From IMG/VR virus record IMGVR_UViG_3300045242_000058, positions 1-44,108 of that record: 44,108 nt of DNA. One strand, written 5' to 3'. Below the pieces are notes generated by a model, which saw only the letters and a program-made list of their open reading frames with translations, was not told the DNA's origin and did no database searches. Numbering within the stretch: position 1 is the stretch's first letter; each line of letters opens with the position of its first letter. Below, piece after piece: positions 4,840 through 39,530 of the stretch. The DNA comes from a virus. The position numbers were made by a program, and so were the translations under genes.

Positions 4840-5186
4840 GGCCTGCCTTCTCTGAGTTCGATTTCGTGTTGGCGTCGGCTGGCACGTGCCGCGGCAGTCC
4901 GTTCGCTCATCTGCTGCACTCGTGCATCGCACTCGCCGATGGCAGCCGCCTTCAGGGCCGTCCATTGGTCCGGCGTGACGAACAGCACCTCTCGGTAGAA
5001 AAACGCCTTGGCTCGCGACGGGGAAATACTGAGATCGCGCGCGGCTTGCCGGATGGCATCAGACATTGAGCGACAGGTTGCGGCGCGACGCGCCAGAACC
5101 GCGTCGCGAACGATCTCGACGCACTGTTCAAGCCACGTGTCGCGGTTCTTCAAAGAAAAATCATGACTGGTAGCCATTTTCTCCAT
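4782..5186 (-). CDS. Helix-turn-helix DNA-binding-like protein
   Basis: A 134-residue protein. The central segment SMSDAIRQAARDLSISPSRA then KAFFYRE reads as a helix-turn-helix followed by a helix, and is preceded by an N-terminal helix that begins near TWLEQCVEIV. The C-terminal third is basic and glycine-rich. It is the second gene of the leftward early operon after the Cro-like gene, the place where lambdoid phages keep a CII-type regulator. A role as early regulator is plausible but not shown. An alternative start (ATG at 5177) has GGAG just upstream. Confidence 0.6.
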   Translation of the reverse strand: MEKMATSHDFSLKNRDTWLEQCVEIVRDAVLARRAATCRSMSDAIRQAARDLSISPSRAKAFFYREVLFVTPDQWTALKAAAIGECDARVQQMSERTAAARASRRQHEIELREGRPCGFSGNGRGSAAGGGIDA

Positions 5187-5291
5187 CCGTCAGGTTGCTT
5201 TCACCGAAACGGAACAGAGAGCGTGAACGAACCCGCGCGCAAGCTTGGCGGCAGAGCGCGAGAACGATGAGGGCAGCAGGGCGCGGCGGGA

Positions 5292-5347
5292 ACCGCACCC
5301 GCTCCCGAGCCCGACCGAAATGCCCGCAAGCTAAGAGCGGGTGCGGT
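5292..5347 (-). promoter_or_regulatory. 13-bp perfect inverted repeat after the Cro-like gene
   Basis: Bases 5292-5304 (ACCGCACCCGCTC) and 5335-5347 (GAGCGGGTGCGGT) are perfect inverted repeats enclosing 30 nt. In the leftward early transcript this would form a strong GC stem ending at the Cro stop codon. No U-run follows, so it is not a simple intrinsic terminator. It could be an attenuator, an antitermination site or an mRNA-processing hairpin. The 5187-5346 gap has no other evident feature. Confidence 0.5.
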
Positions 5348-5610
5348 CATGCGTCCTCTGAGCATGAAATGCCAGACACATCGACATCCACCGGTCGCTG
5401 GCGTCCCCTCTCTGCAGTATGTGCTTCGAACACGTCCAGGGTGATGTGTCTGGTAGCTTCGGACACTGAGGCGGAACGCGTCAGGGCGGGCCAATACCGA
5501 GGCGGAATGCCGATTCTGTACCATTGGCTGACGGCGTTGCGGTCGATCGCCACAATGCCAGCAACCACTCGGGATCCGCCAAGGGCAGCGATGATTTCCC
5601 TGGCCGTCAT
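5347..5610 (-). CDS. Cro-like transcriptional regulator
   Basis: An 87-residue protein. Residues 1-45 form a compact HTH of the small Cro/YdaS-like type (MTAREIIAALGG, then VAIDRNAVSQWYRIGIPPRY and WPAL). This family occurs as first early gene in many proteobacterial phages, where it counters the CI repressor. The C-terminal half is hydrophilic and probably disordered. It is transcribed leftward and divergent from the repressor gene. A 17-bp palindrome lies 11 nt upstream, within the predicted promoter. The ATG lies 6 nt from the likely -10 element, so the message is probably leaderless, and no Shine-Dalgarno sequence is present. Confidence 0.75.
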   Translation of the reverse strand: MTAREIIAALGGSRVVAGIVAIDRNAVSQWYRIGIPPRYWPALTRSASVSEATRHITLDVFEAHTAERGRQRPVDVDVSGISCSEDA

Positions 5611-5616
5611 CCAGCG

Positions 5617-5645
5617 ATAATGACAAATGGTTTGTCAGCCGGCAA
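5617..5645 (-). promoter_or_regulatory. Putative leftward early promoter
   Basis: On the minus strand, TTGCCG (plus 5640-5645), a 17-nt spacer, then CATTAT (plus 5617-5622). Each element matches consensus at four of six bases. The first operator palindrome lies across the spacer, so repressor binding would block RNA polymerase. Confidence 0.5.
5621..5637. promoter_or_regulatory. Operator palindrome O1
   Basis: TGACAAATGGTTTGTCA, with two perfect 7-bp arms around a 3-bp centre. It shares the GACAA-N7-TTGTC pattern with four other sites at both ends of the repressor/accessory gene pair. It overlaps the predicted leftward promoter, so it is a likely CI/Cro binding site. Confidence 0.7.
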
Positions 5646-5666
5646 GGACCACTCGACAGCTACGTC

Positions 5667-5683
5667 TGACAAAACTGTTGGCA
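5667..5683. promoter_or_regulatory. Degenerate operator O2
   Basis: TGACAAAACTGTTGGCA has one perfect arm and a second arm with two mismatches to the O1 pattern. Its centre is 46 bp from the O1 centre and 23 bp from the O3 centre, so the three sites lie on a 23-bp grid (about two helical turns). This spacing would suit cooperative repressor binding. Confidence 0.5.
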
Positions 5684-5689
5684 AGCTTG

Positions 5690-5706
5690 GGACAAATAAT
5701 TTGTCC
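5690..5706. promoter_or_regulatory. Operator palindrome O3
   Basis: GGACAAATAATTTGTCC, a 17-bp palindrome that is perfect apart from its central base. It ends 3 nt before the first plausible start codon of the repressor gene. It contains AATAAT, which could be a -10 element for a leaderless repressor message, so bound protein would give autoregulation. Confidence 0.7.
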
Positions 5707-5709
5707 ATC

Positions 5710-6207
5710 ATGGCTGCCATGTCGAAGGATCCCAAAAATGTCGAGATGGGCCGCAGGATAGCTGCAGCGATGCGCGAGTGCGGCCTCGAGCCGAGCGACA
5801 AGGAGTTAGCTCGCAGATTGAAAATGACGGGTCAGGAGAGCGCAGTTAGGAATTGGTTGAATGGGTCTTCGCGCCCATCGCTGGATAACGCTCGGAAGAT
5901 AAAGGATCTGCTTAGTGTCGGTCTTGATTGGCTGTATGATGGTGACGAAGTTGGCTTAAGTGGAGAGAAACGCTTACGGCTGAAGGAGGCGCTCGCCTCG
6001 CTTCAGCGTGACGCCAAACGCGGGAGGCCACCGAAAGAACAGCCGCCCACCCGCTCACTCCAACCCAAAGGATCTACCCCACCGCGCCCTATTCAGGGAG
6101 GTCGCGTCCACGAAAATCAAGTTAGGATCGACCGTGTAGACGATCGATCCCCGGGGCGCTGCGGCGAGGTCGTGCGCATGCCGGCACGCGGTGGTGGCCG
6201 GCAATGA
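5710..6207 (+). CDS. CI-like repressor (HTH, no LexA-type peptidase domain)
   Basis: A 165-residue protein. Residues about 10-75 form an HTH of the repressor type (GRRIAAAMRECGLEPSDKEL, ARRLKMTGQESAVRNWLNG, LDNARKIKDLLSVGLDWLYD). The rest is basic and proline-rich, with no S24 serine-lysine autoprotease signature, so RecA-stimulated self-cleavage is not expected and induction must work another way. The ATG at 5710 or 5719 is chosen because the in-frame DNA further upstream is the operator region. Neither ATG has a Shine-Dalgarno sequence, which suggests leaderless translation. The gene is divergent from the Cro-like gene and ends in an ATGA overlap with a secreted-protein gene. Confidence 0.75.
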   Translation: MAAMSKDPKNVEMGRRIAAAMRECGLEPSDKELARRLKMTGQESAVRNWLNGSSRPSLDNARKIKDLLSVGLDWLYDGDEVGLSGEKRLRLKEALASLQRDAKRGRPPKEQPPTRSLQPKGSTPPRPIQGGRVHENQVRIDRVDDRSPGRCGEVVRMPARGGGRQ

Positions 6208-6575
6208 GGGCGCTGGCCATGGCACTCATAGTGGCCACTTCGCCTGCCTTGGCTGACGATCATCAATGGTATGTCGGCCAAACCAGCGGAGAGCTGTGCA
6301 CTCCGATTCATGGATCTGGCGCAGCAATCGAAACACGGCTGTTCGGCGCAGCCGGCATCCAGTCCCCGTGGGATTACGAGCGCTTCCTCAATGAATGGGG
6401 TGAATTCCACGACGACGCCGGCAACTGGTATTCCGGCAAGGTAACACTAGAGGCTGGCAATGGCGGCGGAGTGTTGCAGTATCGTATAAGGTCTCCCGGC
6501 AGGCCGGACGGGTTCAAGCTTATTTTTGATAGCCGTGATCATTGCGAGTTCATTATGCGTGGCATCCGCCACTGA
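6204..6575 (+). CDS. Secreted protein co-expressed with the repressor
   Basis: A 123-residue protein with a clear N-terminal signal peptide: MRALAMALIVATSPALA, with probable cleavage before DDHQ. The mature part is about 106 residues, with two cysteines (one near the N-terminus, one in DHCEF near the C-terminus) that could pair in the periplasm. I do not recognise the fold. The ATG overlaps the repressor stop codon (ATGA), so the protein should be made in lysogens from the repressor message. That is the usual place for lysogenic-conversion or superinfection-exclusion genes. Function is unknown. Confidence 0.65.
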   Translation: MRALAMALIVATSPALADDHQWYVGQTSGELCTPIHGSGAAIETRLFGAAGIQSPWDYERFLNEWGEFHDDAGNWYSGKVTLEAGNGGGVLQYRIRSPGRPDGFKLIFDSRDHCEFIMRGIRH

Positions 6576-6638
6576 TGCCGCCCGCGGGCGCCGCGACCGC
6601 CGGAGGCTGGCGAAGAGTTTAGTCTGGGCGCCATTTGA

Positions 6639-6655
6639 CGACAAGAAACTTGTCG
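6639..6655. promoter_or_regulatory. Operator palindrome O4
   Basis: CGACAAGAAACTTGTCG has perfect 7-bp arms around AAA and the same 17-bp size and GACAA/TTGTC core as O1 and O3. It lies upstream of the predicted rightward early promoter, so the repressor probably also controls the recombination operon. Confidence 0.65.
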
Positions 6656-6672
6656 ACATGGCAAATTGGCCG

Positions 6673-6702
6673 TTGACTAGCGACAAACCAATTGTCATTT
6701 AT
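6673..6702 (+). promoter_or_regulatory. Putative rightward early promoter with operator O5
   Basis: TTGACT at 6673-6678, an 18-nt spacer, and ATTTAT at 6697-6702. The palindrome-like CGACAAACCAATTGTCA (6681-6697) fills the spacer, with matching GACAA/TTGTC cores, and its centre is 42 bp from that of O4. Transcription would start near 6709 and run into the Gp157 gene at 6741. An operator inside the promoter spacer is the usual arrangement for direct repression. Confidence 0.55.
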
Positions 6703-6740
6703 GTCCATCACCGCGCTCCAGCCGATGGAGACCGCGCCAC

Positions 6741-7340
6741 ATGTCAGACATTCGCGGTCCCGGTCCTGCCACGATCGAGCGTTGCATTGCGGCCTGGCAG
6801 CGCACCCGCGCGGCGATCGACGCCGATGGCGAGTTGGCGCAGGACGAACAACCGATAGAGGCTGCACTCGACGCTGACCCCAACACCTTGACGCCTGAGG
6901 AGTTGGTTCGGCGCCTGGTGCGCGCGGTGGTGTTCGCCGAATCCCGCGAGGATGAATCGAAGCTGCTGGTTGCCGCCCTGCAGGGCCGCCAGCGCCGCTA
7001 TGCCAATCGAGCGGCATGGCTGCGCGATGAACTGCTGGAGGTGATGGTCGCGCTGGAGTGGAAGAAGCACGCCGCACCCTACGGCACTGTCAGCGTGCGG
7101 GCTGGCACTCTGTCGGTGCTGATCCTCGATGAGCAGGCGTTGCCCGACGATTACTGCCGGATCGAGCGCAAGGCTGATCGGGCGAAGATCCTGGCCGATC
7201 TGAAGCAGGGCGTGGTGATCGAGGGCGCGCAGCTGACCAATGGCGCGCCGGGGATCACGCTGCGCCGACCTCGCGCCATCGCCGATGATTCGCCAGCGCT
7301 CGCAATCGCCGACCAGTCAACCGACGCAACGGAGGAGTGA
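6741..7340 (+). CDS. Gp157-family protein
   Basis: A 199-residue protein. The central coiled-coil region (about 60-115, RRYANRAAWLRDELLEVMVA) is followed by a beta segment APYGTVSVRAGTLSVLILDE, then LPDDYCRIERKADRAKILADL, IEGAQLTNG and ITLRR. This is the characteristic order of Siphovirus Gp157 proteins, which sit beside recombination or single-strand-binding genes in many phages. It is the first gene of the rightward early operon and ends in a TGATG overlap with the Bet gene. A role in DNA metabolism is likely from context, though the biochemistry of the family is not settled. GGAG lies 10 nt before the ATG. Confidence 0.8.
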   Translation: MSDIRGPGPATIERCIAAWQRTRAAIDADGELAQDEQPIEAALDADPNTLTPEELVRRLVRAVVFAESREDESKLLVAALQGRQRRYANRAAWLRDELLEVMVALEWKKHAAPYGTVSVRAGTLSVLILDEQALPDDYCRIERKADRAKILADLKQGVVIEGAQLTNGAPGITLRRPRAIADDSPALAIADQSTDATEE

Positions 7341-8647
7341 TGGCGCAGGCAGCCCGACAGCAAGTTGCGATCACGCGCTTTCAGAAGCCGCCGGTGTTTG
7401 GCGGCACTGACTCGGTGTGGCGGGTGCTGTGCGACCTCTACCCCGCGGCCGAGACGCCGGAGGTGGTGATGGCGGTGGTCGAGTATTGCGCCGCGCGCAA
7501 GCTGGATCCGATGAAACGGCCGGTGCACATCGTGCCGATGTACAACCGCCGCCTGCGCCGCAAGGTGCAGGTTGTGCTTCAGGGCATCAACGAGATTGAG
7601 ATCACCGCGTCGCGCACCGGCAAGTGGGCGGGCATGGATCCGCCGAAATGGGGCGAGCCGGTTGAGCGGAAATTCCACGGCGTGTTCGAGAATGACGACG
7701 GTAGCACGCGCACAGTCGACGTGACGATGCGCTATCCCGAATGGTGCAGCGTGACGGTGTATCGCATGTTGGGTGAGCAGCGCGTGGCGTTCACCGAGCA
7801 GCTGTTCTGGGACGAAAGCTACCAGCGCACCGCGTACAACAGCGAGGTGCCGAACGCGCGCTGGCAGGTGGCGCCGCGCCAGATGCTGCACAAATGCACG
7901 AAGGCCGCGGTGTTGCGAGCAGCCTTCCCGGAAGAAGGCTTTGGCCCCTCGGCAGAGGAAATGGATGGCGGTGTCACCGACGCCGGCGGCTTCGTCATCG
8001 ACGGGGTGGCCGAGGCGTCGCCGGTCGTCGAACCACCGTCGCAGCGGGTCGCGCAGGACAAGGCCGAGGAGGACCAGGGCGAGCGGGACTTCCGCGCCGA
8101 GATGGAGCGCGAGCAGCAGGCCGAGCGGGACCGGCAAGCAGAACGCGACCGCCAGGCCGCTCGCTACCAGTCGCCCGCAGGCCAGCCGGACGACGGGGCT
8201 GAGGACCCGCTGGCCGGGTTGATGGAGCCGAACGGCACCATCTGGTTGAAGAACCTCACGGCTCTCCTGGCGGGCGCTACGAGCCTGTCGCAAGTCGTCG
8301 AGATCGCCGGTCATCAGCGCGTCATCGCGTCTCTGCAAACCGCGCCGACGCTAATCAAGGATCGGATCAACGAGCTGCTGAAGCAGGCGCACGACTTGCT
8401 CGCGGCGCCGGGGGCACCGGCGGACGATGATCATCGGCCGAACCGCGAGGCGCCCGGCTGGGACCTCGACCAGACCGGCGAACTGCTCGCCGAGATCGAG
8501 GAAATGGACGCCGACGCGCTCGATACCCTGGCGCGTAGCAAGGCATGGGCAGCAAAAACGCGCGATCTCATCCCGCCCGATCTCGATCGCATCAACGAAG
8601 CGATCGCGCTGCGCCGCACCGTCCTGAAAGGAGACAAGCCGACATGA
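7340..8647 (+). CDS. bet: Bet/RecT-type single-strand annealing protein
   Basis: A 435-residue protein. Residues about 1-200 carry the Bet/RecT core: VMAVVEYCAARKLDPMKRPV, then VVLQGINEIEITASRTGKWAG, the aromatic YPEWCSVTVYRM, AFTEQLFWDESY and WQVAPRQMLHKCTKAAVLRA. Such proteins form rings or filaments on single-stranded DNA and anneal complementary strands. The C-terminal half is unusual: an acidic/glutamine-rich coiled coil (about 250-275) and then a separate helical domain to the end, making the protein longer than lambda Bet (261 residues). No Exo/RecE partner was found beside it, but nuclease-like genes exist in the leftward operon. GGAGGAG precedes the ATG. Confidence 0.9.
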   Translation: MAQAARQQVAITRFQKPPVFGGTDSVWRVLCDLYPAAETPEVVMAVVEYCAARKLDPMKRPVHIVPMYNRRLRRKVQVVLQGINEIEITASRTGKWAGMDPPKWGEPVERKFHGVFENDDGSTRTVDVTMRYPEWCSVTVYRMLGEQRVAFTEQLFWDESYQRTAYNSEVPNARWQVAPRQMLHKCTKAAVLRAAFPEEGFGPSAEEMDGGVTDAGGFVIDGVAEASPVVEPPSQRVAQDKAEEDQGERDFRAEMEREQQAERDRQAERDRQAARYQSPAGQPDDGAEDPLAGLMEPNGTIWLKNLTALLAGATSLSQVVEIAGHQRVIASLQTAPTLIKDRINELLKQAHDLLAAPGAPADDDHRPNREAPGWDLDQTGELLAEIEEMDADALDTLARSKAWAAKTRDLIPPDLDRINEAIALRRTVLKGDKPT

Positions 8648-8862
8648 GCAGCAGGCACAAGCCAGACCACGAGATGCACATCATGCAGCGTGGTCTGCGC
8701 GATCTTGCGGAGTTGCCACCTGGAGGGCGTCGTCGTGTGCTGGCCTATTGGTGTGCGCGTGCCGACGCGCTGCCCGAGGTCGGCAACGGCCAGCACGGCG
8801 AGCAGCAATTGGACATCGAAGACGCGCCGATGATGCCGCACCTCAAGGGCGCGGCGGCGTAA
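8644..8862 (+). CDS. Small early protein
   Basis: A 72-residue protein of unknown function, starting in an ATGA overlap with the bet stop codon. It has one helical stretch (RGLRDLAELPPGGRRRVLAY) and an acidic C-terminus. It is part of the tightly coupled rightward early operon. Confidence 0.6.
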   Translation: MSSRHKPDHEMHIMQRGLRDLAELPPGGRRRVLAYWCARADALPEVGNGQHGEQQLDIEDAPMMPHLKGAAA

Positions 8863-8868
8863 TTGCCC

Positions 8869-9090
8869 ATGCCGGACCTACTGCCGATCACGTTGCAGGA
8901 CATGATCGACGAAGTAGAGCGCGAGCTCGGCATGCGCGAGCGCTTGTATCCGCAATGGAAGGCCGCCGCCGGTCGTAACAAGCGCAACCAGCTGGACCGC
9001 CAATGGGACGTGATGGAGGCAATTCTCAAGCATTTGCAGGGGGAACGCGATGGACCAGGTCGACAGATGGGTGGACGGCAGGCGTCGTGA
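8869..9090 (+). CDS. Small conserved-type early protein
   Basis: A 73-residue helical protein (ITLQDMIDEVERELGMRERL, then WDVMEAILKHLQ). Proteins with this helix-loop-helix layout occur in early regions of many proteobacterial phages, but no function is known to me. It starts 6 nt after the preceding stop codon and overlaps the next gene by 41 nt. Confidence 0.65.
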   Translation: MPDLLPITLQDMIDEVERELGMRERLYPQWKAAAGRNKRNQLDRQWDVMEAILKHLQGERDGPGRQMGGRQAS

Positions 9091-9253
9091 CGGGTGCGCG
9101 CTCGTCTGGGGTATTGACGGTTGGCTGATCATGCCCGGCGACGAAGGCCTGCCGGTCGCGCATTGTCCGTGCTGCGGTAAGCCGTTCGGCACCGTCAAGG
9201 CAGCGCAACTGGTGGCGGACTTTCTCTACCCGATGCAGGAGCCGGGCGGTTGA
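9050..9253 (+). CDS. Small zinc-ribbon-like protein
   Basis: A 67-residue protein with a CPCCGKPF knuckle near residue 43 and a preceding conserved-looking GWLIMPGDEG. Only one cysteine pair is present, so any zinc site would need the nearby histidine or a partner molecule. It overlaps both neighbours (41 nt upstream, a TTGA junction downstream). Confidence 0.6.
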   Translation: MDQVDRWVDGRRRDGCALVWGIDGWLIMPGDEGLPVAHCPCCGKPFGTVKAAQLVADFLYPMQEPGG

Positions 9254-9336
9254 ACGTGCGCGCGTTCGTCCACGCCGCGCTGCTCGCGATCCTGCTTTGG
9301 TCGCTCATTCTCGTATTCATCGAGTTGGATATGTGA
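9250..9336 (+). CDS. 28-residue single-membrane-segment micro-protein
   Basis: The TTG at 9250 overlaps the previous stop codon (TTGA), with AGGAG at 9237-9241, 8 nt upstream. The product is almost entirely one hydrophobic helix (AALLAILLWSLILVFIE). It ends in a TGATG overlap with the next gene. Translational coupling on both sides and the good ribosome-binding site support it, but its size means moderate confidence. Confidence 0.5.
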   Translation: MNVRAFVHAALLAILLWSLILVFIELDM

Positions 9337-9566
9337 TGACGCTCCCGCGCTGCCGGTGCGGACGCAAGGCGATCGCGGTGGCGCCAGGCAGGGCGCCGGT
9401 CTATGCGCCGGGCGACGTCCTGATCGATCGCGGTGAGCGGATCCAGGCCTGGTGCACCGCCTGCGCAGTCGCGCGTGGGTGGCTTGTCACGCCAGCGCAG
9501 CCGAGCGCAGCGGCGGCATGCTCGACGCCGCGAGGCGCGCGGAAAATAGCGCGAGCGGACCAATGA
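9336..9566 (+). CDS. Small zinc-ribbon protein
   Basis: A 76-residue protein with CRCGRK near the N-terminus and CTAC near residue 44, giving a four-cysteine zinc ribbon. The C-terminus is alanine-rich and basic. It begins at an ATG overlapping the preceding stop codon and ends in ATGA (9563-9566). The new ATG opens a frame that runs through the first CGCNN array. Confidence 0.6.
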   Translation: MTLPRCRCGRKAIAVAPGRAPVYAPGDVLIDRGERIQAWCTACAVARGWLVTPAQPSAAAACSTPRGARKIARADQ

Positions 9567-9578
9567 ACTCCGAGACGC

Positions 9579-9780
9579 CGCGTCGCTACGTTCCGCGCCG
9601 CCCCGCTCCGCAGCGCCGCGCTACACCCCGCACCGCACCGCATCGCTCCGCCCCGCGCCGCAGCGCACCGTGCCGCAGCGCCCCGCCGCTCGCCGCACCG
9701 CACCGCATCGCTCCGCCCCGCGCCGCAGCGCACCGTGCCGCAGCGCCCCGCCGCTCGCCGCATCGCAACGCAACGCAACG
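9579..9780 (+). repeat. CGCNN pentanucleotide array 1 (40 units)
   Basis: Forty consecutive 5-nt units plus CG, in unbroken register; 34 of 40 begin with CGC. The last three units are CGCAA. Units 11-23 (9629-9693) are repeated exactly as units 24-36 (9694-9758), a 65-bp tandem duplication. By my count the plus strand is about 54% C and 27% G. The array begins 13 nt after an ATGA stop/start overlap and ends 17 nt before the ATG at 9797. A frame opened by that ATGA (9563) crosses the array without a stop and is in frame with the 9797 gene, so a 273-residue fusion product is possible. Confidence 0.95.
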
Positions 9781-9796
9781 TCCAATGGAGAGAACA

Positions 9797-10384
9797 ATGC
9801 GAATCTGCAAAGCCTACCTCGAGAACATCCCTGGCTCGCCCTACAGCCAATCAGCCCAGCACGACGAGCCGAAGCTGGAACGCGAGTCACACGACGACTA
9901 TGACGAGCGCACCTGGCGCAAAAAATGCACCGTCAACGACAAGGGGCAAATCTGCGTGCCGGCGATGGCGCTGAAACAATGCGTCGATCTGGCTGCGCAG
10001 AAGCTCGGGGAGAAAATCCCCGGGCGGCGTGGCGCCACCTACAAGAGCTTCTTCACCAGCGGGGTCATCTGCGGCGCCGACATGCCGATCAGCAACGGCA
10101 AGGCGATTACCCCTGACGATGCCGTCATGGTCAAGATCAACGCCAATGCCGACGGAGTCCGCGGATCGGGGAAGCGGGTCAAGCGTCGCTTCCCGGTGTT
10201 CGACAAATGGCACGGCGTCGCCGAGTTCACCATCGTTGACGACATCATCACGCAGGAGGTCTTTGAGCACCACCTGAAAAGCGCAGGGATGATCGTTGGC
10301 ATCGGCCGCTATCGCCCGGCCAACGGCGGGGCCAATGGCAGGTTCCGCGTTACCCGAGTCGAATGGCAGAACATGAGCCTATGA
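9797..10384 (+). CDS. Conserved phage early protein with RAMP-like glycine-rich end
   Basis: A 195-residue protein. It has an N-terminal beta strand (MRICKAYLENIPG), a DDYDERTWRKK segment, IPGRRGATYKSFFTSGV in the middle and a C-terminal IGRYRPANGGANGRFRV. The last motif resembles the glycine-rich loop of Cas7/RAMP folds, and whole proteins of this layout occur in early operons of other proteobacterial phages without known function. Binding of single-stranded nucleic acid is a reasonable guess from context next to bet. The ATG at 9797 is preferred because GGAG lies 6 nt upstream; an in-frame ATG at 9784 and the coupled ATG at 9563 are alternatives. CGCNN arrays flank the gene on both sides. 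Confidence 0.7.
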   Translation: MRICKAYLENIPGSPYSQSAQHDEPKLERESHDDYDERTWRKKCTVNDKGQICVPAMALKQCVDLAAQKLGEKIPGRRGATYKSFFTSGVICGADMPISNGKAITPDDAVMVKINANADGVRGSGKRVKRRFPVFDKWHGVAEFTIVDDIITQEVFEHHLKSAGMIVGIGRYRPANGGANGRFRVTRVEWQNMSL

Positions 10385-10385
10385 G

Positions 10386-10637
10386 GTCGCCTCGGCGCAC
10401 CGCGGCGCCACGCACCGCCTCGCAACGCTCCGCAGCGCAAGTCTCCGCCACGCTCCGCGTCGCTACTCCGCGCCGCGCAACGCATCGCTCCGCGCCTAGC
10501 CGCAGCGCATCTCTGCGCTCCGCAACTCGCCTCACCGCCACGCCCTGCGCCGCAGCGCTCCGGATCGCAGCGCCGCGCGACGCCCCGCTCCGCAGCGCTA
10601 CTCGTCGCCCCGCATCGCACCGCCCCGCAACGCAACG
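10386..10637 (+). repeat. CGCNN pentanucleotide array 2 (50 units)
   Basis: Fifty consecutive 5-nt units plus CG with no slip in register over 252 nt; 39 of 50 begin exactly with CGC and most others keep two of the three bases. The last two units are CGCAA, followed by the next gene's ribosome-binding site. The array starts 1 nt after the ATGA at 10381-10384. The frame opened there stays open to 10665, 14 nt inside the next gene. Unlike array 1, no long internal duplication is visible. Confidence 0.95.
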
Positions 10638-10651
10638 ACAGAAGGGATCAC

Positions 10652-11161
10652 ATGAAAGCCTTTGAACGATCACAGACCACCGACAGCCTTGTCAGGTATC
10701 TCGCCCAACACGAGAAGGAAGCCCTGATCGACTACAAAGAGCTGACGCAGATCGCCGGGATCACAGTCACACCTCGCACGACTAATCTCACATCGGCCCG
10801 CAAGATTTTGGAACGTGACCATGCCCAGGTGTGGATTTGCGTCGCTCCCGCCGTTGCCCTTTACCGGCTGAATGACGCGGAGATCGCCGCCCGGCAACGC
10901 GACTGGTATCTCAATGGCGCGCGTAACAAGCTGTCGGCTGGCGCACGGCAGGCCGATGTCGTCGAACTGGAAGGGCTTGACCTCAAGCAGCAGGCGCGGT
11001 TTGCGACTGACTCGATCGTTCGTGAGATCGCCCGCGACGCTCTGGCGAGGGCGACGCACCGGCAGATCGAGAAGGTCGCGCGCGGCACGTCGAACGACCT
11101 GCCAGCGTTCAACGCCGTGGAGTGGATGATAAGCCTCAGCCCCCGGCGGGCAGCAAAATGA
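10652..11161 (+). CDS. Early protein of unknown function between two arrays
   Basis: A 169-residue protein. The N-terminal half reads like a winged-helix-type fold (LVRYLAQHEKEALIDYKELT, then LTSARKILERDHAQVWICVA), followed by a long helical C-terminal region ending in a helix near AFNAVEWMISL. I do not recognise a named family. GAAGGG lies about 7 nt before the ATG, just after the last CGCAA unit. The stop overlaps an ATG (ATGA at 11158-11161) that leads into array 3. Its place beside bet and between arrays suggests a DNA-associated role. Confidence 0.65.
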   Translation: MKAFERSQTTDSLVRYLAQHEKEALIDYKELTQIAGITVTPRTTNLTSARKILERDHAQVWICVAPAVALYRLNDAEIAARQRDWYLNGARNKLSAGARQADVVELEGLDLKQQARFATDSIVREIARDALARATHRQIEKVARGTSNDLPAFNAVEWMISLSPRRAAK

Positions 11162-11167
11162 GATCAC

Positions 11168-11336
11168 CGCCCCGCTTCCCCCGCAGCTCGGCGCTCCGCA
11201 TCGCGTCGCAGCGCCACGCACCGCACCGCTCCGCAGCGCTCCGCAGCGCAACTCCGCGCCGCGCTCCGCTACGCTGCGCCTCGCCCCGCTCCGCATCGCT
11301 ACGCTGCGCCTCGCCCCGCTCCGCAACGCAACGCTC
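11168..11336 (+). repeat. CGCNN pentanucleotide array 3 (about 33 units)
   Basis: Two units (11168-11177), a 4-nt phase break, then 31 units in perfect register (11182-11336), 29 of which begin with CGC. Units at 11267-11296 recur at 11297-11326 with one base changed, a 30-bp duplication. CGCAA-CGCAA and a CGCTC unit close the array. It begins 6 nt after the ATGA at 11158-11161. The frame opened there runs to 11577, overlapping the next gene in another frame. Confidence 0.95.
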
Positions 11337-11380
11337 GGAAGACAGCACCAGGGCAGTCGCGAACATGATCACAAACCCTC

Positions 11381-11794
11381 GTGGATATGGTGCATGGCGT
11401 CCTGACCTTCTCAGGGTTCAGCATGCCGATGGCGCGCTGGGACGCTGCCACGGATACGGTGACGTTCGACTGGCCGGCAATCGAGAAGGCGGCGGCGGAG
11501 AAGGGTGGCTCGCTCGAAGGCATGACGCTCTTTTGCAGATTGATAGAGGATCACAAAAAACGCTCGTTTGCAGGTGATCCCATGTTGGATGAATGGCAAC
11601 CGATGACTACTGCGCCGCGCGACGGCACCCGCGTCCTGGCTTATGCCGCTGAAGATGCGGCGGACACGCAGCCGCAGATAGTCAAATGGAAAGACGGGAT
11701 GTGGATCATCGCTTGGGATGGCGAGACGTGGCGTTACGGCGAGCCGTTCACGCACTGGATGCCACTGCCCGAGCCGCCGGCTTCCAGGCAGTGA
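11381..11794 (+). CDS. DUF551-domain protein with an N-terminal extension
   Basis: 137 residues from the GTG at 11381. The C-terminal 70 residues are a clear DUF551 domain: WQPMTTAPRDGTRVLAY, then WKDGMWIIAWDG and the closing THWMPLPEPP. The N-terminal 67 residues (ARWDAATDTVTFDWPAIEKA, SLEGMTLFCRLIEDH) are not known to me and may be a separate domain. An internal ATG at 11582 with AGGTGA upstream could start the DUF551 domain alone, and an ATG at 11423 is another possible start. It follows array 3. DUF551 proteins are common in phage early regions and have no known function. Confidence 0.65.
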   Translation: MDMVHGVLTFSGFSMPMARWDAATDTVTFDWPAIEKAAAEKGGSLEGMTLFCRLIEDHKKRSFAGDPMLDEWQPMTTAPRDGTRVLAYAAEDAADTQPQIVKWKDGMWIIAWDGETWRYGEPFTHWMPLPEPPASRQ

Positions 11795-11818
11795 ACCCCT
11801 CGATTGCAGGAGTGGCCA

Positions 11819-12022
11819 ATGACCGAGACGCGCGATCAGTCTCCCCTGACGATCTATTTCCGTCCGTGCCGGGTGTGTGGCGGATTGATCGGCTGCCTCC
11901 GCGAAGACGCCACGCCGATCTGTCCTGAGTGCGATGCCAAGCCCGAACCCATGTGCCTGACCCAATCCCAGCAACGGATCATGGACCGCGCCCGGCGGCG
12001 CTCGCTGCGGATCATCGCGTGA
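11819..12022 (+). CDS. Small zinc-ribbon protein
   Basis: A 67-residue protein with CRVCGG and CPEC pairs (a four-cysteine zinc ribbon) and a basic C-terminal helix (QQRIMDRARRRSLRIIA). AGGAG lies 8 nt before the ATG at 11819, which sets the start. Confidence 0.65.
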   Translation: MTETRDQSPLTIYFRPCRVCGGLIGCLREDATPICPECDAKPEPMCLTQSQQRIMDRARRRSLRIIA

Positions 12023-12062
12023 TGGCTACCTCCGATAATCGACGTTGTGAGAGGTAAGTCCG

Positions 12063-12287
12063 ATGGCTGACTGGCCCAAGCCGACATGGGAGCCGCTATG
12101 GTGTTCGTGCAAGGCGTGCGGCCATTGGTGGGACGACTGGCAGCCCTGCATGGTGCCGGTCGCCACCTGGGTCGCGCACATCAAGACGCTGCATTGCCCA
12201 GCGTGTGGCGCCAACCGCGGCAGGGTTATGCTGCGCACCAAGCCGCTGGATCAGAGGCCAGAGGCTACCATCGACAAGACCAGTTAG
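12063..12287 (+). CDS. Small zinc-ribbon protein
   Basis: A 74-residue protein with CSCKACGHWW near residue 14 and CPACGANRG near residue 45. The pairs are separated by a tryptophan-rich segment. It is probably a structural zinc fold. It is the fourth small cysteine-knuckle protein in this operon. Confidence 0.65.
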   Translation: MADWPKPTWEPLWCSCKACGHWWDDWQPCMVPVATWVAHIKTLHCPACGANRGRVMLRTKPLDQRPEATIDKTS

Positions 12288-12301
12288 CGGATGAAACCCC
12301 G

Positions 12302-12535
12302 GTGACCCCTGGTGAAGCCTACGCTCGCGGCACCCTGGTCAGGGTCATGGCCGACGGCACGCACCCATTTGTCGCTGGGCTCATCTTCGACCACGACACC
12401 CAGCGCGTCATCGTCGCCGCGCCGATCCTGCGGCATTTGATGGGCATCCACGCGGACAAGCTGCGCGCCGGGTTCAAGCGCCTCGGCTGGCGGGCGACGA
12501 TCGTGCGACGTGTAACGTCCACAAATGACGATTAG
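12302..12535 (+). CDS. Small early protein
   Basis: 77 residues from the GTG at 12302. It contains ARGTLVRVMADGTHPFVAGL and HLMGIHADKLRAGFKRLGWR, a plausible small alpha/beta fold. The GTG overlaps the stop of a four-codon frame (ATG at 12291), which may act as a coupling leader. No strong Shine-Dalgarno sequence is visible, and the family is not recognised. Confidence 0.55.
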   Translation: MTPGEAYARGTLVRVMADGTHPFVAGLIFDHDTQRVIVAAPILRHLMGIHADKLRAGFKRLGWRATIVRRVTSTNDD

Positions 12536-12562
12536 CGAGCTGTCGAAGGGGAGCATGTTGTG

Positions 12563-12757
12563 ATGGCGGAAACATCTGACGCCCCGGAGCAAATTATGCT
12601 AAAGGATTCGGGCTGCGCCCCTGGCTTAGAGGGGGTGGCGGGATCGGTTGCCTCCGATCCCGCTTATCCCGTGGGTCACGCGGCAAACAGAGTACTGGAG
12701 ATATCTGATGCCCGTAACGACCGGAACCGCGCGCACGAGAGCGCGCTGCAATCATGA
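12563..12757 (+). CDS. Small protein upstream of excisionase (putative)
   Basis: 64 residues, ending in an ATGA overlap with the excisionase gene. The composition is hydrophilic with no motif. The downstream coupling and the otherwise empty position support it. A GC stem-like segment lies in the middle of the gene, so part of this may instead be regulatory DNA. Confidence 0.4.
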   Translation: MAETSDAPEQIMLKDSGCAPGLEGVAGSVASDPAYPVGHAANRVLEISDARNDRNRAHESALQS

Positions 12758-13119
12758 TACCGCAACGCCCAGCGAGCGGCAACGAGCCGCGGTGGCTCAA
12801 CCCGGACAGTGCCGCCGCCTATATCGGCGTGCGCGTCGAGCGACTGCGTCCACTGGTCAAGGCGGGCAAGCTACCATCACCAAGCTATCACCTCGGGCCC
12901 AATCAGCCGCGCTTCGATCGGCTTGCGCTGGATCGAGTGTTCAGCGGGGAGGCCGGTAGCGGTGCGCAAGATACCAGCGCCATCTTCCAACGGGTTGCCG
13001 CCGACATCGCCTCTCGAGGACGGCTGGCAGATCAAGAGGCGCGTCCTGGCCGACGGAACCGTCAAGGAATACCGCTACGCCAAGCGCACGGCAAAGACGG
13101 GGCAGCCTCGGGCCGGTGA
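12754..13119 (+). CDS. Excisionase-like MerR-type HTH protein
   Basis: 121 residues. The N-terminal 65 carry an Xis-like winged helix: PRWLNPDSAAAYIGVRVERL, then LVKAGKLPSPSYHLGPNQPR, FDRLALDRVF. Such proteins bend attP DNA and turn integrase toward excision. The C-terminal part overlaps the integrase gene by 158 nt and is biased (R, G, Q), so it may have little function. It starts in ATGA coupling with the preceding gene and lies directly upstream of int, as expected for a recombination directionality factor. Confidence 0.65.
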   Translation: MIPQRPASGNEPRWLNPDSAAAYIGVRVERLRPLVKAGKLPSPSYHLGPNQPRFDRLALDRVFSGEAGSGAQDTSAIFQRVAADIASRGRLADQEARPGRRNRQGIPLRQAHGKDGAASGR

Positions 13120-14035
13120 CTCACTCGCTTCACTGATCGAAAACTACCAACGCAGTCCGAAGTGGCTGAAGCTGGCACCATCGACCAAGCAGATGTATGC
13201 GATCTATCTGCGCGAGCTTTTCCAGGCCGGCGATGCTGTCGTTGCAACGATCAGGCGCCGCGACATCATAGCAATTCGTGATTCGATCGCGGCTCGTCGC
13301 GGACATGGCGCGGCGCACGGGTTCATCAGAGCGGCGTCGGCGTTGTTCACCTGGGCGCGCAGGGCGGAATGGATCGAGTCCAGCCCCGTCACTGACGGCG
13401 CCGAGGACTTGGAGCGCGGTCACCTGCCGGCATGGACCATGGAGCAGGCGCAGATCGCAATGGAGCGGTTGCCGGAGCATCTGCGGCGGGTGGTCGTGCT
13501 GGCGCTCTATACCGCCGCGCGACGCACTGATCTCTGCTCGATGACGTGGTCAGCCTACGATGGAACCCACCTGACCTTCATGCCGCAGAAGACGCGGCGA
13601 CATCGCCACCCGGATGACCCACAGGTGGTGCCGTGCTGCGCGGCACTGAAGGCCGAGCTCGACGCCTGGCGGCGTGACGCAGTGGCTGGGATCGGCAATG
13701 CGACGATCTTGACCGACGCGCAAGGCAAGCCATGGAAGCCGACGCTGTTGTCTCACTATCTGCCGGCGGCCCTGGTCAAGATCGGCCTGTCGAATGAACT
13801 CAATGTGCACGGGCTTCGCAAATTGGCGGCGGTGCAGCTCGCCGAGGCGGGGTGGACAACCCACGAAATCGCCGCGGTCACCGGACACCATACGCTGGCG
13901 ATGGTGCAATTCTACACCGAGGCCGCGAACCGCAAACGGCTGGCGGATGCGGCGATGCAGCGCACGAAGGGCACCCTTCATGCGTTTCCCGGAACATTTC
14001 CCGCTCACGGGAAAGACGTCAAGGAAATCAGATAG
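12962..14035 (+). CDS. int: Tyrosine integrase
   Basis: 357 residues from the GTG at 12962, which has GGGGAGG about 8 nt upstream. The core-binding domain is at about 50-140 and the catalytic domain follows. The active site is complete: R187 in TAARRTDL, K210 in the MPQKTR beta hairpin, H283 and R286 in HGLRKLAA, H309 in TGHHTLAM and the nucleophile Y318 in QFYTEA. It is the last gene of the rightward early operon. The enzyme would join attP, probably in the AT-richer region just downstream, to a host attB. Longer in-frame readings upstream lie within the excisionase gene and look like shadow. Confidence 0.9.
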   Translation: MRKIPAPSSNGLPPTSPLEDGWQIKRRVLADGTVKEYRYAKRTAKTGQPRAGDSLASLIENYQRSPKWLKLAPSTKQMYAIYLRELFQAGDAVVATIRRRDIIAIRDSIAARRGHGAAHGFIRAASALFTWARRAEWIESSPVTDGAEDLERGHLPAWTMEQAQIAMERLPEHLRRVVVLALYTAARRTDLCSMTWSAYDGTHLTFMPQKTRRHRHPDDPQVVPCCAALKAELDAWRRDAVAGIGNATILTDAQGKPWKPTLLSHYLPAALVKIGLSNELNVHGLRKLAAVQLAEAGWTTHEIAAVTGHHTLAMVQFYTEAANRKRLADAAMQRTKGTLHAFPGTFPAHGKDVKEIR

Positions 14036-14046
14036 ATAATGCGAGC

Positions 14047-14091
14047 AATATTCGTTCAGATCAGATTACGTTACTGATTTCGCTGAATATT
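14047..14091. other. Possible attP region (AT-rich, inverted repeat)
   Basis: Just after int is a locally AT-rich stretch in an otherwise GC-rich genome. It contains inverted 7-mers AATATTC (14047-14053) and GAATATT (14085-14091). attP commonly lies beside int, and AT-rich bendable DNA is typical of arm/IHF sites. No core sequence or tRNA-gene fragment can be recognised. The 14036-14268 gap otherwise holds only the terminator described separately. Confidence 0.35.
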
Positions 14092-14167
14092 TCCCACAGG
14101 TGCCGGCCGCTTATGGACGTGGCCTCCGAGGCGTAGAGCGCCACGACAGGCCGGAATGGCAGGCATG

Positions 14168-14198
14168 AAAAAGGCCCCGGCGCGTGAGCACCGGGGCC
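14168..14198 (-). terminator. Intrinsic terminator of the leftward late operon
   Basis: GGCCCCGG (14173-14180) pairs with CCGGGGCC (14191-14198) around a 10-nt loop. On the minus strand the stem is followed by five T residues (plus-strand AAAAA at 14168-14172), the classic rho-independent form. It lies 70 nt after the last late gene and prevents late transcription from entering int. Confidence 0.8.
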
Positions 14199-14268
14199 AA
14201 GGAAGGTCTCGTACGGAGATGCAAATAGTCCCGTGCCGCACTATGCCACGGCGGCAGCTTCCCTCACA

Positions 14269-14379
14269 TCACAAGTCACCGTCATCGGACGGCGGGGGCG
14301 GCGCAGCGGCGTAGAGGACGGCCCAGACCAGCACGCCCCACACCACAACGAGCGCGACAGCCGCCAGGACGCAGATCAG
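14269..14379 (-). CDS. Small membrane protein, possible CTG start
   Basis: A 36-residue reading frame with one hydrophobic helix (CVLAAVALVVVWGVLVWAVL) and a proline-rich acidic tail. The only early start candidate is CTG at 14379, which overlaps the previous stop codon (CTGA) and has GGAGGA about 6 nt upstream. Conventional start codons occur only inside the helix. The very good Shine-Dalgarno placement argues for it. It is the last gene of the late operon and could belong to lysis. Confidence 0.4.
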   Translation of the reverse strand: MICVLAAVALVVVWGVLVWAVLYAAAPPPPSDDGDL

Positions 14380-14621
14380 GGTCGATCCTCCGGTTTCTCC
14401 GCGTCCAATCCGGCCCACACGTAGCCGATGCCTGGGCAGGTCAGAATCATCGCCGGCCCGACCGTCTCCCTGATTTGGTGGACGTGCGATCGCAGGCACG
14501 CCAGCGCCCGGAGCTTCCGGCGTTCCTCCGGCCAGAGCGCGGTGTGGAGTTCGTCGTACGCCACGACCTCGCCGGTCCGCGCGAGCAGCAGACTGACCAG
14601 TCGCGATTTGACACGGCCCAT
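14376..14621 (-). CDS. OmpR-type winged-helix DNA-binding domain protein
   Basis: An 81-residue protein that is essentially one Trans_reg_C (OmpR/PhoB-type) winged helix: SRLVSLLLARTGEVVAYDEL, LRSHVHQIRETVGPAMILTC, then GIGYVW at the wing. It has no receiver domain and no membrane segment. Such a stand-alone output domain could bind host or phage promoters. Its position at the end of the late operon, between two membrane-protein genes, is unusual. The ATG shares its A with the upstream stop codon (TGATG). Confidence 0.7.
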   Translation of the reverse strand: MGRVKSRLVSLLLARTGEVVAYDELHTALWPEERRKLRALACLRSHVHQIRETVGPAMILTCPGIGYVWAGLDAEKPEDRP

Positions 14622-15256
14622 CACCAGACGGCGAGACGCATCGCATGGTCCTCCATGACGAGCTTGGCCTGCGCCTCGGTGGTCAGGTCCGGCGGCTCCT
14701 GCCACGCGATGACCAGCGCCCCGACCATGACCCCAAACAGCGGGGGCACCTGAATCATGCACAGCCGGTCGATGTGATAGCGCGCCGCCGCGGCCGCGCC
14801 CTCGGCGTTCGGCGAGCCGGGATTGACGCTGAAACACGTCGGCTCGTTGCGCAGGAACTTCACCAAGAACGCGGGATCAGTCTGCTCGGAAATCGCCGGA
14901 TGCGGGCCCCCGAGCGGGATCCAGACATGACCGTCCTTATCCAGCCCGTCGCGCACGATCGCCACGTTGTCGCTCAGCCGGACCTCGAGGAGCATCACAC
15001 CGAAGGCGTGCGCGTCACGGATGATCACCGGCGCCGCCTGCGTGAACGCCTGCATGTCCAGATGCGGCGTCACCCGCCGCGCCAGGATGGCCTGGGCGAT
15101 CTGCGCACGCATTTCGTAGAGCGTGTAACCGATGCCGCCGACCACCATGATGGCGAGCAGCCCGACGACCTTCCAGGGGCGATCGAGGCCAGAGAGCAAC
15201 GCGGAAAGGAACCCCGCCGCGCCGCTATAATCCCGGCGCGGCGGATCGTCGGCCAT
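14621..15256 (-). CDS. Membrane-anchored protein near the end of the late operon
   Basis: A 211-residue protein with one membrane helix at about 29-47 (VVGLLAIMVVGGIGYTLYEM), then a helix and a soluble domain of about 150 residues ending in a hydrophobic beta segment (LFGVMVGALVIAW). The soluble part recalls a GAF-like sensor fold by its pattern, but I cannot confirm this. It lies after the tail-fibre genes, where related phages place lysis genes, yet it has neither holin nor endolysin motifs. Confidence 0.6.
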   Translation of the reverse strand: MADDPPRRDYSGAAGFLSALLSGLDRPWKVVGLLAIMVVGGIGYTLYEMRAQIAQAILARRVTPHLDMQAFTQAAPVIIRDAHAFGVMLLEVRLSDNVAIVRDGLDKDGHVWIPLGGPHPAISEQTDPAFLVKFLRNEPTCFSVNPGSPNAEGAAAAARYHIDRLCMIQVPPLFGVMVGALVIAWQEPPDLTTEAQAKLVMEDHAMRLAVW

Positions 15257-38327: not shown

Positions 38328-39530
38328 TCAGGCGGCGCGGAGCCGGCGTGCCAACGCAGCGGCGCGTTGCAGTTGCTTTGCGCGTTCCTCCGGCTCGGCC
38401 GGATCGTCGGGATCCCCGTCCGGGTCCTCGGCGCTGCCGTCGAGCGATTCCACGACGTCGGACAGCAGCCCGATCGCCTTGCGCGTGCATTCGGTCTCAG
38501 CCTTGCCGAACGCATGGGCCGACTTGATGTGCTTGTGTGCCATCCGCACCGCGTCGTGGTGCTCGGTTGGCAGCTCGTCCTCGGGATCGTCCCCGACCTC
38601 GCGCAGCGTGACGCCGGCGACCGTGGCGAGTTCCAGCAGGCGCTGCACGTTGCGTTCGAGGCGGCGCAGCCGTTTCTCGTTCTCGTCGTCATCGTCGTCC
38701 TGCTTGGTGCCCTTGCCGTGGATGGCGCACTCGGTGCTGTCTTTCAGCCCGCATTCGTCAGCCGCCTTGCGCCCGCAGGTCGCCCCACCAGGCGCCTTGT
38801 CCTCGCTGTCGTCCGGCTTGTCCTCGGGATCATCATCGGCACGACGGCGCGTGCCAGGGCGACGTGCCATAGGCGGCTCCTTTGCTGCTTTGCGGAGGGC
38901 TTCAAGTTCCTTGCGGGGGATCAGTACGCGGCGGGACGCGACGCCGGCGGCGTCGAGTGTGCGCTCGGCCCACTCGGCGAGCGGGCGCGTGTCGATGCCC
39001 TTGCGGCGCGCGGCGATAAGCGCGTTGGCGTTGGCCGGCACCGGGCAGACCGAGATTTCCAGCAGCTCCTGCCGCTTGAAGTCGATGCCCCAGCCGCGGT
39101 CCGGATCGTTCTCCACGAAACTATATTCGATCGGCAGGAAGCCCACCGAAACGGCGTTGACGAAGCCGCCCACGACGAGGCGGTATATGGTGTCGCCGAA
39201 GGCGTAAATCGCGGCATCGACGAACTCGATGTCGCCCATCAGCCGTGCGTCCTCGACCCCGAGATTGCTGGCACGGCCGATCGGCGGAGAGCTGCTGTCA
39301 TGCGCCCAGAGCGCCACCGGGTTCGCCATGAAGTCGTCCGTTTGCCAGCCATCCGGGGCGATGGTGTCGCCCATGCGGTCGACCGAGCCGTCGGAGAACA
39401 CGAAGCGCACCTTGCGCGTGCCGTCCTCGAACGCCCGCGGCTTGGCGGTGCTGACGCGATAGACACCACCCTCCGGCACGCGCTGCGCGCGCAGCCCGGC
39501 GCGAAAGGCGTCGATGCCGATCAGGTTCAT
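38328..39530 (-). CDS. HK97-type prohead protease with long C-terminal extension
   Basis: 400 residues. The serine protease domain is at about 20-180: SDGSVDRMGDTIAPDGWQTD, H77 in LWAHDSS and S128 in NAVSVGFLP as catalytic pair, LLEISVCPVPANANALIAAR at its end. Residues about 225-400 form an extra part: an acidic linker, a three-cysteine segment (TCGRKAADECGLKDSTEC) and a coiled coil (EKRLRRLERNVQRLLELATV). Such extensions can serve as scaffold. The cysteine segment might bind metal. An HK97 protease is usually around 200-230 residues, so this form is nearly double. Confidence 0.9.
   Translation of the reverse strand: MNLIGIDAFRAGLRAQRVPEGGVYRVSTAKPRAFEDGTRKVRFVFSDGSVDRMGDTIAPDGWQTDDFMANPVALWAHDSSSPPIGRASNLGVEDARLMGDIEFVDAAIYAFGDTIYRLVVGGFVNAVSVGFLPIEYSFVENDPDRGWGIDFKRQELLEISVCPVPANANALIAARRKGIDTRPLAEWAERTLDAAGVASRRVLIPRKELEALRKAAKEPPMARRPGTRRRADDDPEDKPDDSEDKAPGGATCGRKAADECGLKDSTECAIHGKGTKQDDDDDENEKRLRRLERNVQRLLELATVAGVTLREVGDDPEDELPTEHHDAVRMAHKHIKSAHAFGKAETECTRKAIGLLSDVVESLDGSAEDPDGDPDDPAEPEERAKQLQRAAALARRLRAA

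Follow-up and report, generated by a model that had tools for sequence, protein, structure and literature searches.

CGCNN arrays around a predicted RAMP-family gene of an uncultivated phage: a probable VIPR guide locus

Three consecutive gene junctions in the viral DNA examined in this study (IMG/VR record IMGVR_UViG_3300045242_000058, positions 1 to 44,108; the whole stretch of 44,108 nucleotides is hereafter called the window) are occupied by long runs of a pentanucleotide, CGCNN, in which the triplet is held and the two bases after it vary. These runs raise the question of what kind of phage element has this form and what keeps it in place. The preliminary description of the window knew of no described phage element of this kind; that statement does not stand, since the vrRNA array of the VIPR system takes this form, with GGY as the triplet in the main text of the publication (PMC13142463). 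Taking the sequence and structure analyses together, it is very probable that the arrays are vrRNA guide arrays of a phage VIPR system, with the effector Vipr encoded between arrays 1 and 2 and a probable Vap encoded by the gene downstream of it (Table 1).

VIPR was described in a 2026 preprint as a CRISPR-like weapon that phages direct against competing phages, consisting of a phage RAMP protein (Vipr), an accessory protein (Vap) and vrRNAs in which GGY and NN alternate (PMC13142463). The NN bases pair with double-stranded DNA and pass over one target base in every unit, a binding that represses the competing phage; in the targets of SUSP1, the skipped base falls at codon position 3 (PMC13142463). 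The published vrRNA has 9-16 units and, after them, a structured 3' tail that does not vary, guides overlap in some VIPR types, and the seven types are said to use GGY/NN "or a related consensus" (PMC13142463).

Table 1. Features of the CGCNN locus and related sites, in positions of the window
Feature	Position	Strand	Description
bet/recT	7337-8647		~0.9 kb upstream of array 1, small ORFs in between
recT site	7571..7596	-	Matched by guide of related VIPR phage L227/L010; 17/18, 1-nt skip, wobble phase
Array 1	9579..9780	+	CGCNN predicted guide array, ~40 units, end CGCAACGCAACGCAACG; same place in relative G004
vipr	9797..10384	+	Predicted RAMP-family (Cas7-like) guide-RNA-binding protein, 195 aa, phrog_4652
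Array 2	10391..10639	+	CGCNN predicted guide array, 49 units, end CGCAACGCAACG
Predicted first guide of array 2	10391..10445	+	11 units, GG-AC-GG-CA-AC-CT-AA-TC-AG-AA-TC, against prohead protease gene
Candidate vap (gene B)	10652..11161	+	Small winged-helix-like putative accessory protein, 169 aa
Array 3	11168..11336	+	CGCNN predicted guide array, 31-33 units, end CGCAACGCAACG
Own prohead protease site	39037..39068	-	In gene 38328-39530 (-); 4 mismatches to array-2 guide

Periodicity and conservation of the arrays

The locus has the order array 1, vipr, array 2, vap-like gene, array 3, and the arrays look as if they sit between the genes of a single operon. In the best phase, 34 of the 40 units of array 1 and 39 of the 50 units of array 2 begin with CGC, which reproduces the counts first reported, while the count for array 3 is 29 of 33 (an earlier figure of 29/31 omitted two units before a phase break). 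The CGC-run scores of the three arrays (28, 30 and 26, respectively) compare with a score of at most 4 everywhere else in the window on both strands and at most 8 among 1000 dinucleotide-preserving shuffles per array, and the pattern is found on the plus strand only. Autocorrelation gave the same result, with lag-5 identities of 0.69, 0.60 and 0.67 against shuffle means of 0.34-0.38 (maxima 0.45-0.49).

Within the internal units, the triplet is CGC in 80%, CTC in 5% and CAC in 4%, and all 16 NN dinucleotides are used, each at 3-10%. NN also shows some duplication: positions 9629-9693 of array 1 are repeated exactly as 9694-9758, a tandem duplication of 13 units (65 nt), and array 3 contains a shorter tandem duplication. 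The duplicated block of array 1 has the size of one guide. These duplications and the differing lengths of arrays show that copy number changes, as it would in a decayed or slipping microsatellite without function, and uniform CGCNN repeats are common in bacterial genomes among the matches listed. However, decay would affect the five positions alike, in contrast to the strong retention of CGC beside an even spread of NN, and the arrays co-occur with vipr and always lie on its sense strand, which makes this origin very improbable.

The arrays can be compared with those of a close relative, G004, whose terminase shares 98% amino acid identity with that of the window and whose vipr and second gene are 90% and 89% identical, respectively, at the DNA level. 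Arrays are present in the same three places in G004, with the same CGC rhythm and the same ends, but they differ in length and at many NN. A change of NN with CGC kept is the pattern expected if selection had replaced guides. The preliminary description was right to argue against ordinary slippage and for a fixed CGC with free NN under selection, and the comparison with related phages that it proposed is positive in G004. Its alternative of an old repeat decaying in phase is not needed.

Arrays of this family range from 8 units upward, and across 211 of them the last units are enriched in CGCAA (AA at 60, 63 and 39% in the last three units versus 9% overall), making terminal CGCAA units a candidate 3' cap. 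No structured 3' tail or hairpin was seen in the window, no Rfam family was found in window positions 5000-15000 or in 11 array loci, and a promoter and terminator scan of positions 8800-11800 gave no signal above chance. In L017, L026, L051 and L069, and also in L037, L090 and L091, conserved hairpin-forming spacers lie between successive arrays; these are possibly structured vrRNA tails or processing sites, and Rfam gave no match for the spacer loci of L017, L037, L051, L069, L090 and L091. The array element itself is very probably functional.

It is also possible to read the arrays as coding, each specifying a basic Arg/Ala-rich peptide (R-x-A-[SPTA]-x) that starts at an ATGA overlap with the preceding stop, so that the 5-nt period would reflect frame-independent coding. 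Such an overlap precedes all three arrays of the window, all three lie in open frames, and an ORF with a start codon spans at least 80% of the array in 63 of 74 family arrays. Yet the unit itself excludes stops (CGC, NNC, GCN, NCG, CNN), such ORFs also cover 457 of 740 random positions in these GC-rich loci, and a protein repeat would have a period of 15 nt rather than 5 nt. The strict association with vipr and the published form of vrRNA account for the period without coding, and we consider a peptide-coding role highly unlikely.

Genes that accompany the arrays

A scan of IMG/VR for exact (CGCNN)10-type stretches returned 101 stretches, and 91 loci carried degenerate arrays, defined as having at least 6 NN types. 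A homologue of vipr is encoded in 69 of these 91 loci and a homologue of the second gene in 62. Among the 56 loci with a full-length vipr, 126 arrays are in the sense orientation of vipr and none in the opposite orientation, no array overlaps vipr, an array lies within 400 nt upstream of vipr in 40 loci and within 400 nt downstream in 40, and an array lies 3' of the second gene in 24. The association also holds from the protein side, as a search with the protein only, ignoring arrays, recovered 22 loci, all 22 of which have C-N-C plus NN arrays on the sense strand. In L239 (586-2284), a close Vipr relative is accompanied by CACNN arrays in place of CGCNN, and the fixed triplet therefore varies within the clade. 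In L033, CGCNN arrays and a divergent Vipr homologue lie on opposite strands.

The preliminary description had instead tied the arrays to bet, placing the two genes that they surround directly downstream of it. The arrays do flank vipr and the second gene, but "directly" was loose wording given the distance and the small ORFs between bet and array 1 (Table 1). Proximity to recT, together with the position at gene junctions, could suggest repeats for annealing recombination by the nearby RecT/Bet, that is, linkers for module exchange. Nevertheless, five other contigs carrying a relative of the window's recT but no vipr have no arrays, and such a relative occurs in only 3 array loci (a count in which more divergent RecTs would be missed). 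Because bet relatives without vipr carry no arrays, bet is regarded as a bystander, and with the complete strand bias relative to vipr, which is unexpected for a recombination site, a recombinational function is hardly credible.

In bacterial genomes, the matches listed were mostly uniform CGCNN microsatellites, with no tie to vipr as far as seen in those matches. Uniform CGCAT or CGCAC microsatellites occur in many bacterial genomes among the matches listed (for example L127, L152 and L188, Brachyspira; L130, Kitasatospora), low-GC genomes included. They share with the window's arrays a 5-nt period with CGC, but they have mostly one to five NN types and fall outside the vipr-associated set.

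A profile built from 47 homologues of the predicted Vipr matched one sequence in the PDB, 36pp, "SUSP1 Vipr protein" (E=2.7e-12). The AlphaFold model of the protein (pLDDT 95) retrieved CRISPR RAMPs as the first-ranking Foldseek matches (subunits of type VII effectors and of Csm and Cmr; E about 1e-7), and 36pp was absent from the hits of the Foldseek structure library. The predicted fold is that of a Cas7/Csm3-like RAMP. A conserved GIGRFRP..GG.NGRF is present near the C-terminus, and the features by which VIPR is recognised, a RAMP homologue with an RRM core and a glycine-rich loop, are found in this protein. A tblastn search of cultured phages and plasmids found no relatives of the window's Vipr. 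In a maximum-likelihood tree, 40 Vipr proteins with CGC or CGN arrays stand apart from the SUSP1/Medea1/Trine/LittleE group (GGY) on a long branch with moderate support (91/91), and a few long-branch Vipr proteins outside the CGC/CGN group also have CGC arrays nearby.

Gene B is on the same strand as vipr in 50 of 56 loci and 3' of it in 46 of those 50. Its predicted fold is winged-helix-like, with weak structure matches, and its profile resembles the gene that follows SUSP1 vipr only marginally; on these two grounds it is a candidate for Vap, and a DNA-binding accessory role is probable.

Comparison with known systems and candidate targets

Applied to SUSP1 as a control, the periodicity detector recovered YNNGG arrays before and after the vipr genes, in agreement with the published account (PMC13142463). 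The window is identified as a VIPR locus because its Vipr homology, RAMP fold and fixed-triplet/NN arrays match published VIPR. In common with SUSP1-type VIPR, it has a phage RAMP protein of ~195 aa, pentanucleotides of a fixed triplet and hypervariable NN around vipr on the sense strand, a small accessory gene 3' of vipr, and candidate targets in rival phages under the 1-nt skip rule. It differs in its triplet (CGC versus the published GGY), in the placement of its Vipr in a separate clade, in its arrays (31-49 units, uninterrupted and between operon genes, versus the published 9-16 units per vrRNA), and in ending in CGCAA units with no structured 3' tail seen. The locus also resembles Class 1 CRISPR-Cas, with its Cas7/Csm3 backbone, in the RAMP fold of the effector and in having a protein thought to coat the guide RNA at a fixed step, but the window has a single small RAMP and 5-nt units with two guide bases each. 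Neither Cas1/Cas2 nor other cas genes were found among the scanned genes near the locus, nor was a repeat-spacer CRISPR array.

By analogy with SUSP1, the sense strand of the arrays would be transcribed and Vipr subunits would assemble along the RNA, one per 5-nt unit, with the fixed CGC held by Vipr. Each NN would then pair with target DNA, passing over one target base in every unit, and about ten units would define a site in a gene of a competing phage, which binding would repress. It is possible that the 49-unit array yields consecutive guides of ~10-13 units, or overlapping guides.

Targets were searched for in viral DNA outside arrays (~4.4 million strand-bases) by concatenating NN with 0-3 skipped bases; a first scan was swamped by low-complexity guides (bacterial microsatellites) and was redone with viral arrays only. 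With a 1-nt skip, a guide of L033 matches 20/20 in a VRR-NUC-like gene of L010 and L232, whose sites differ from each other at skipped bases only, and 18/18 in L254. Under the same rule, a guide of L227 matches 17/18 in recT of the window, L232 and L033, and a guide of L039 matches 18/18 in the terminase gene of G006. The skipped base is codon position 3 in the VRR-NUC gene of L010 and L232, in recT and in the G006 terminase, as reported in the preprint for SUSP1. Exact 9-unit hits were obtained for 2 guide arrays versus 0-1 per shuffle (mean 0.2, 15 shuffles), and hits with at most 1 mismatch for 9 guide arrays versus about 7 in shuffles, of which 6 versus about 2.6 (maximum 5) were at the wobble position. 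The overall excess over shuffles is modest, and these sequence matches are best described as suggestive of targeting with a 1-nt skip. Apparent matches with a skip of 3 were rejected as targets, since they arose where arrays continue into conserved hairpin spacers (L051/L026).

Among the window's own guides, the first units of array 2 correspond to a prohead-protease motif, ELLE[FL]SVCPVP, when the antisense is translated with skipped bases in the wobble position. A near-match in a protease-like gene of L287 had pointed to this motif before IMG/VR was scanned with 11 of these units. The scan found one exact site (22/22, 1-nt skip), in a Peptidase_S78 gene of L332, a phage whose late genes are homologous to those of the window (45% for a 420-aa late gene product and 44% for the protease). 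The site in the window's own prohead protease gene is the best match of this guide within its own genome despite the 4 mismatches, as would be expected of a weapon that leaves its owner unharmed. Two sites, apparently unrelated and judged to be due to chance, were also found for a 20-base pattern of array 3; given these, the chance rate of a single 22-base hit is put at ~0.1, leaving aside gene, reading frame and kinship.

The 3' end of array 2 matches the major head gene of G004 exactly over 8 units, a candidate that was rejected because the window's own head protein has nearly the same motif and AA-AA is a common array end. For the 13-unit block of array 1, the Walker-A region of terminase contains near-matches (3 mismatches in 26 in relatives and 4 in 22 in the window's own terminase), but shuffled guides give no clearly smaller number of near self-matches, and an exact 11-unit search with this duplicated guide gave no match. 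Units 2-12 of array 2 gave no match, nor did a 13-unit array-2 pattern in 385 genomes.

Variation of the triplet and its implications

The closest matches of the window's integrase (12809-14035) are Komagataeibacter phages phiKX1/phiKX2, at 37% identity, a hint that this temperate phage with a contractile tail has an alphaproteobacterial host. A third triplet is seen in Listonella phage phiHSIC (L252, 2777-3036), where GCA/NN-like arrays lie beside a Vipr homologue. Publication of the noncontiguous VIPR code dates only from April 2026, with GGY/NN in the main text (PMC13142463). CGC/NN is a variant of VIPR, and CGC may already be among the types that the preprint groups under a related consensus. 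We propose only tentatively that the locus represents a VIPR type absent from the preprint, in which a large separate Vipr clade reads CGC/NN and the vipr-vap operon contains long arrays densely packed with several guides and closed by a CGCAA cap. The guides would be directed at conserved genes of close relatives (packaging, head and recombination), the phage's own copies being spared.

The use of CGC/NN in this family, with CAC/NN in L239 and GCA/NN in phiHSIC, suggests co-divergence of the triplet and Vipr, in which case it should be feasible to map the Vipr residues that read the triplet and to test orthogonal VIPR codes. In addition, the candidate guide matches suggest mutual targeting among L010/L227, L232, L033 and the window phage. 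Arrays of this kind are easily found in uncultivated viruses, and if the mutual targeting is true, guide warfare between phages would be readable from metagenomes.
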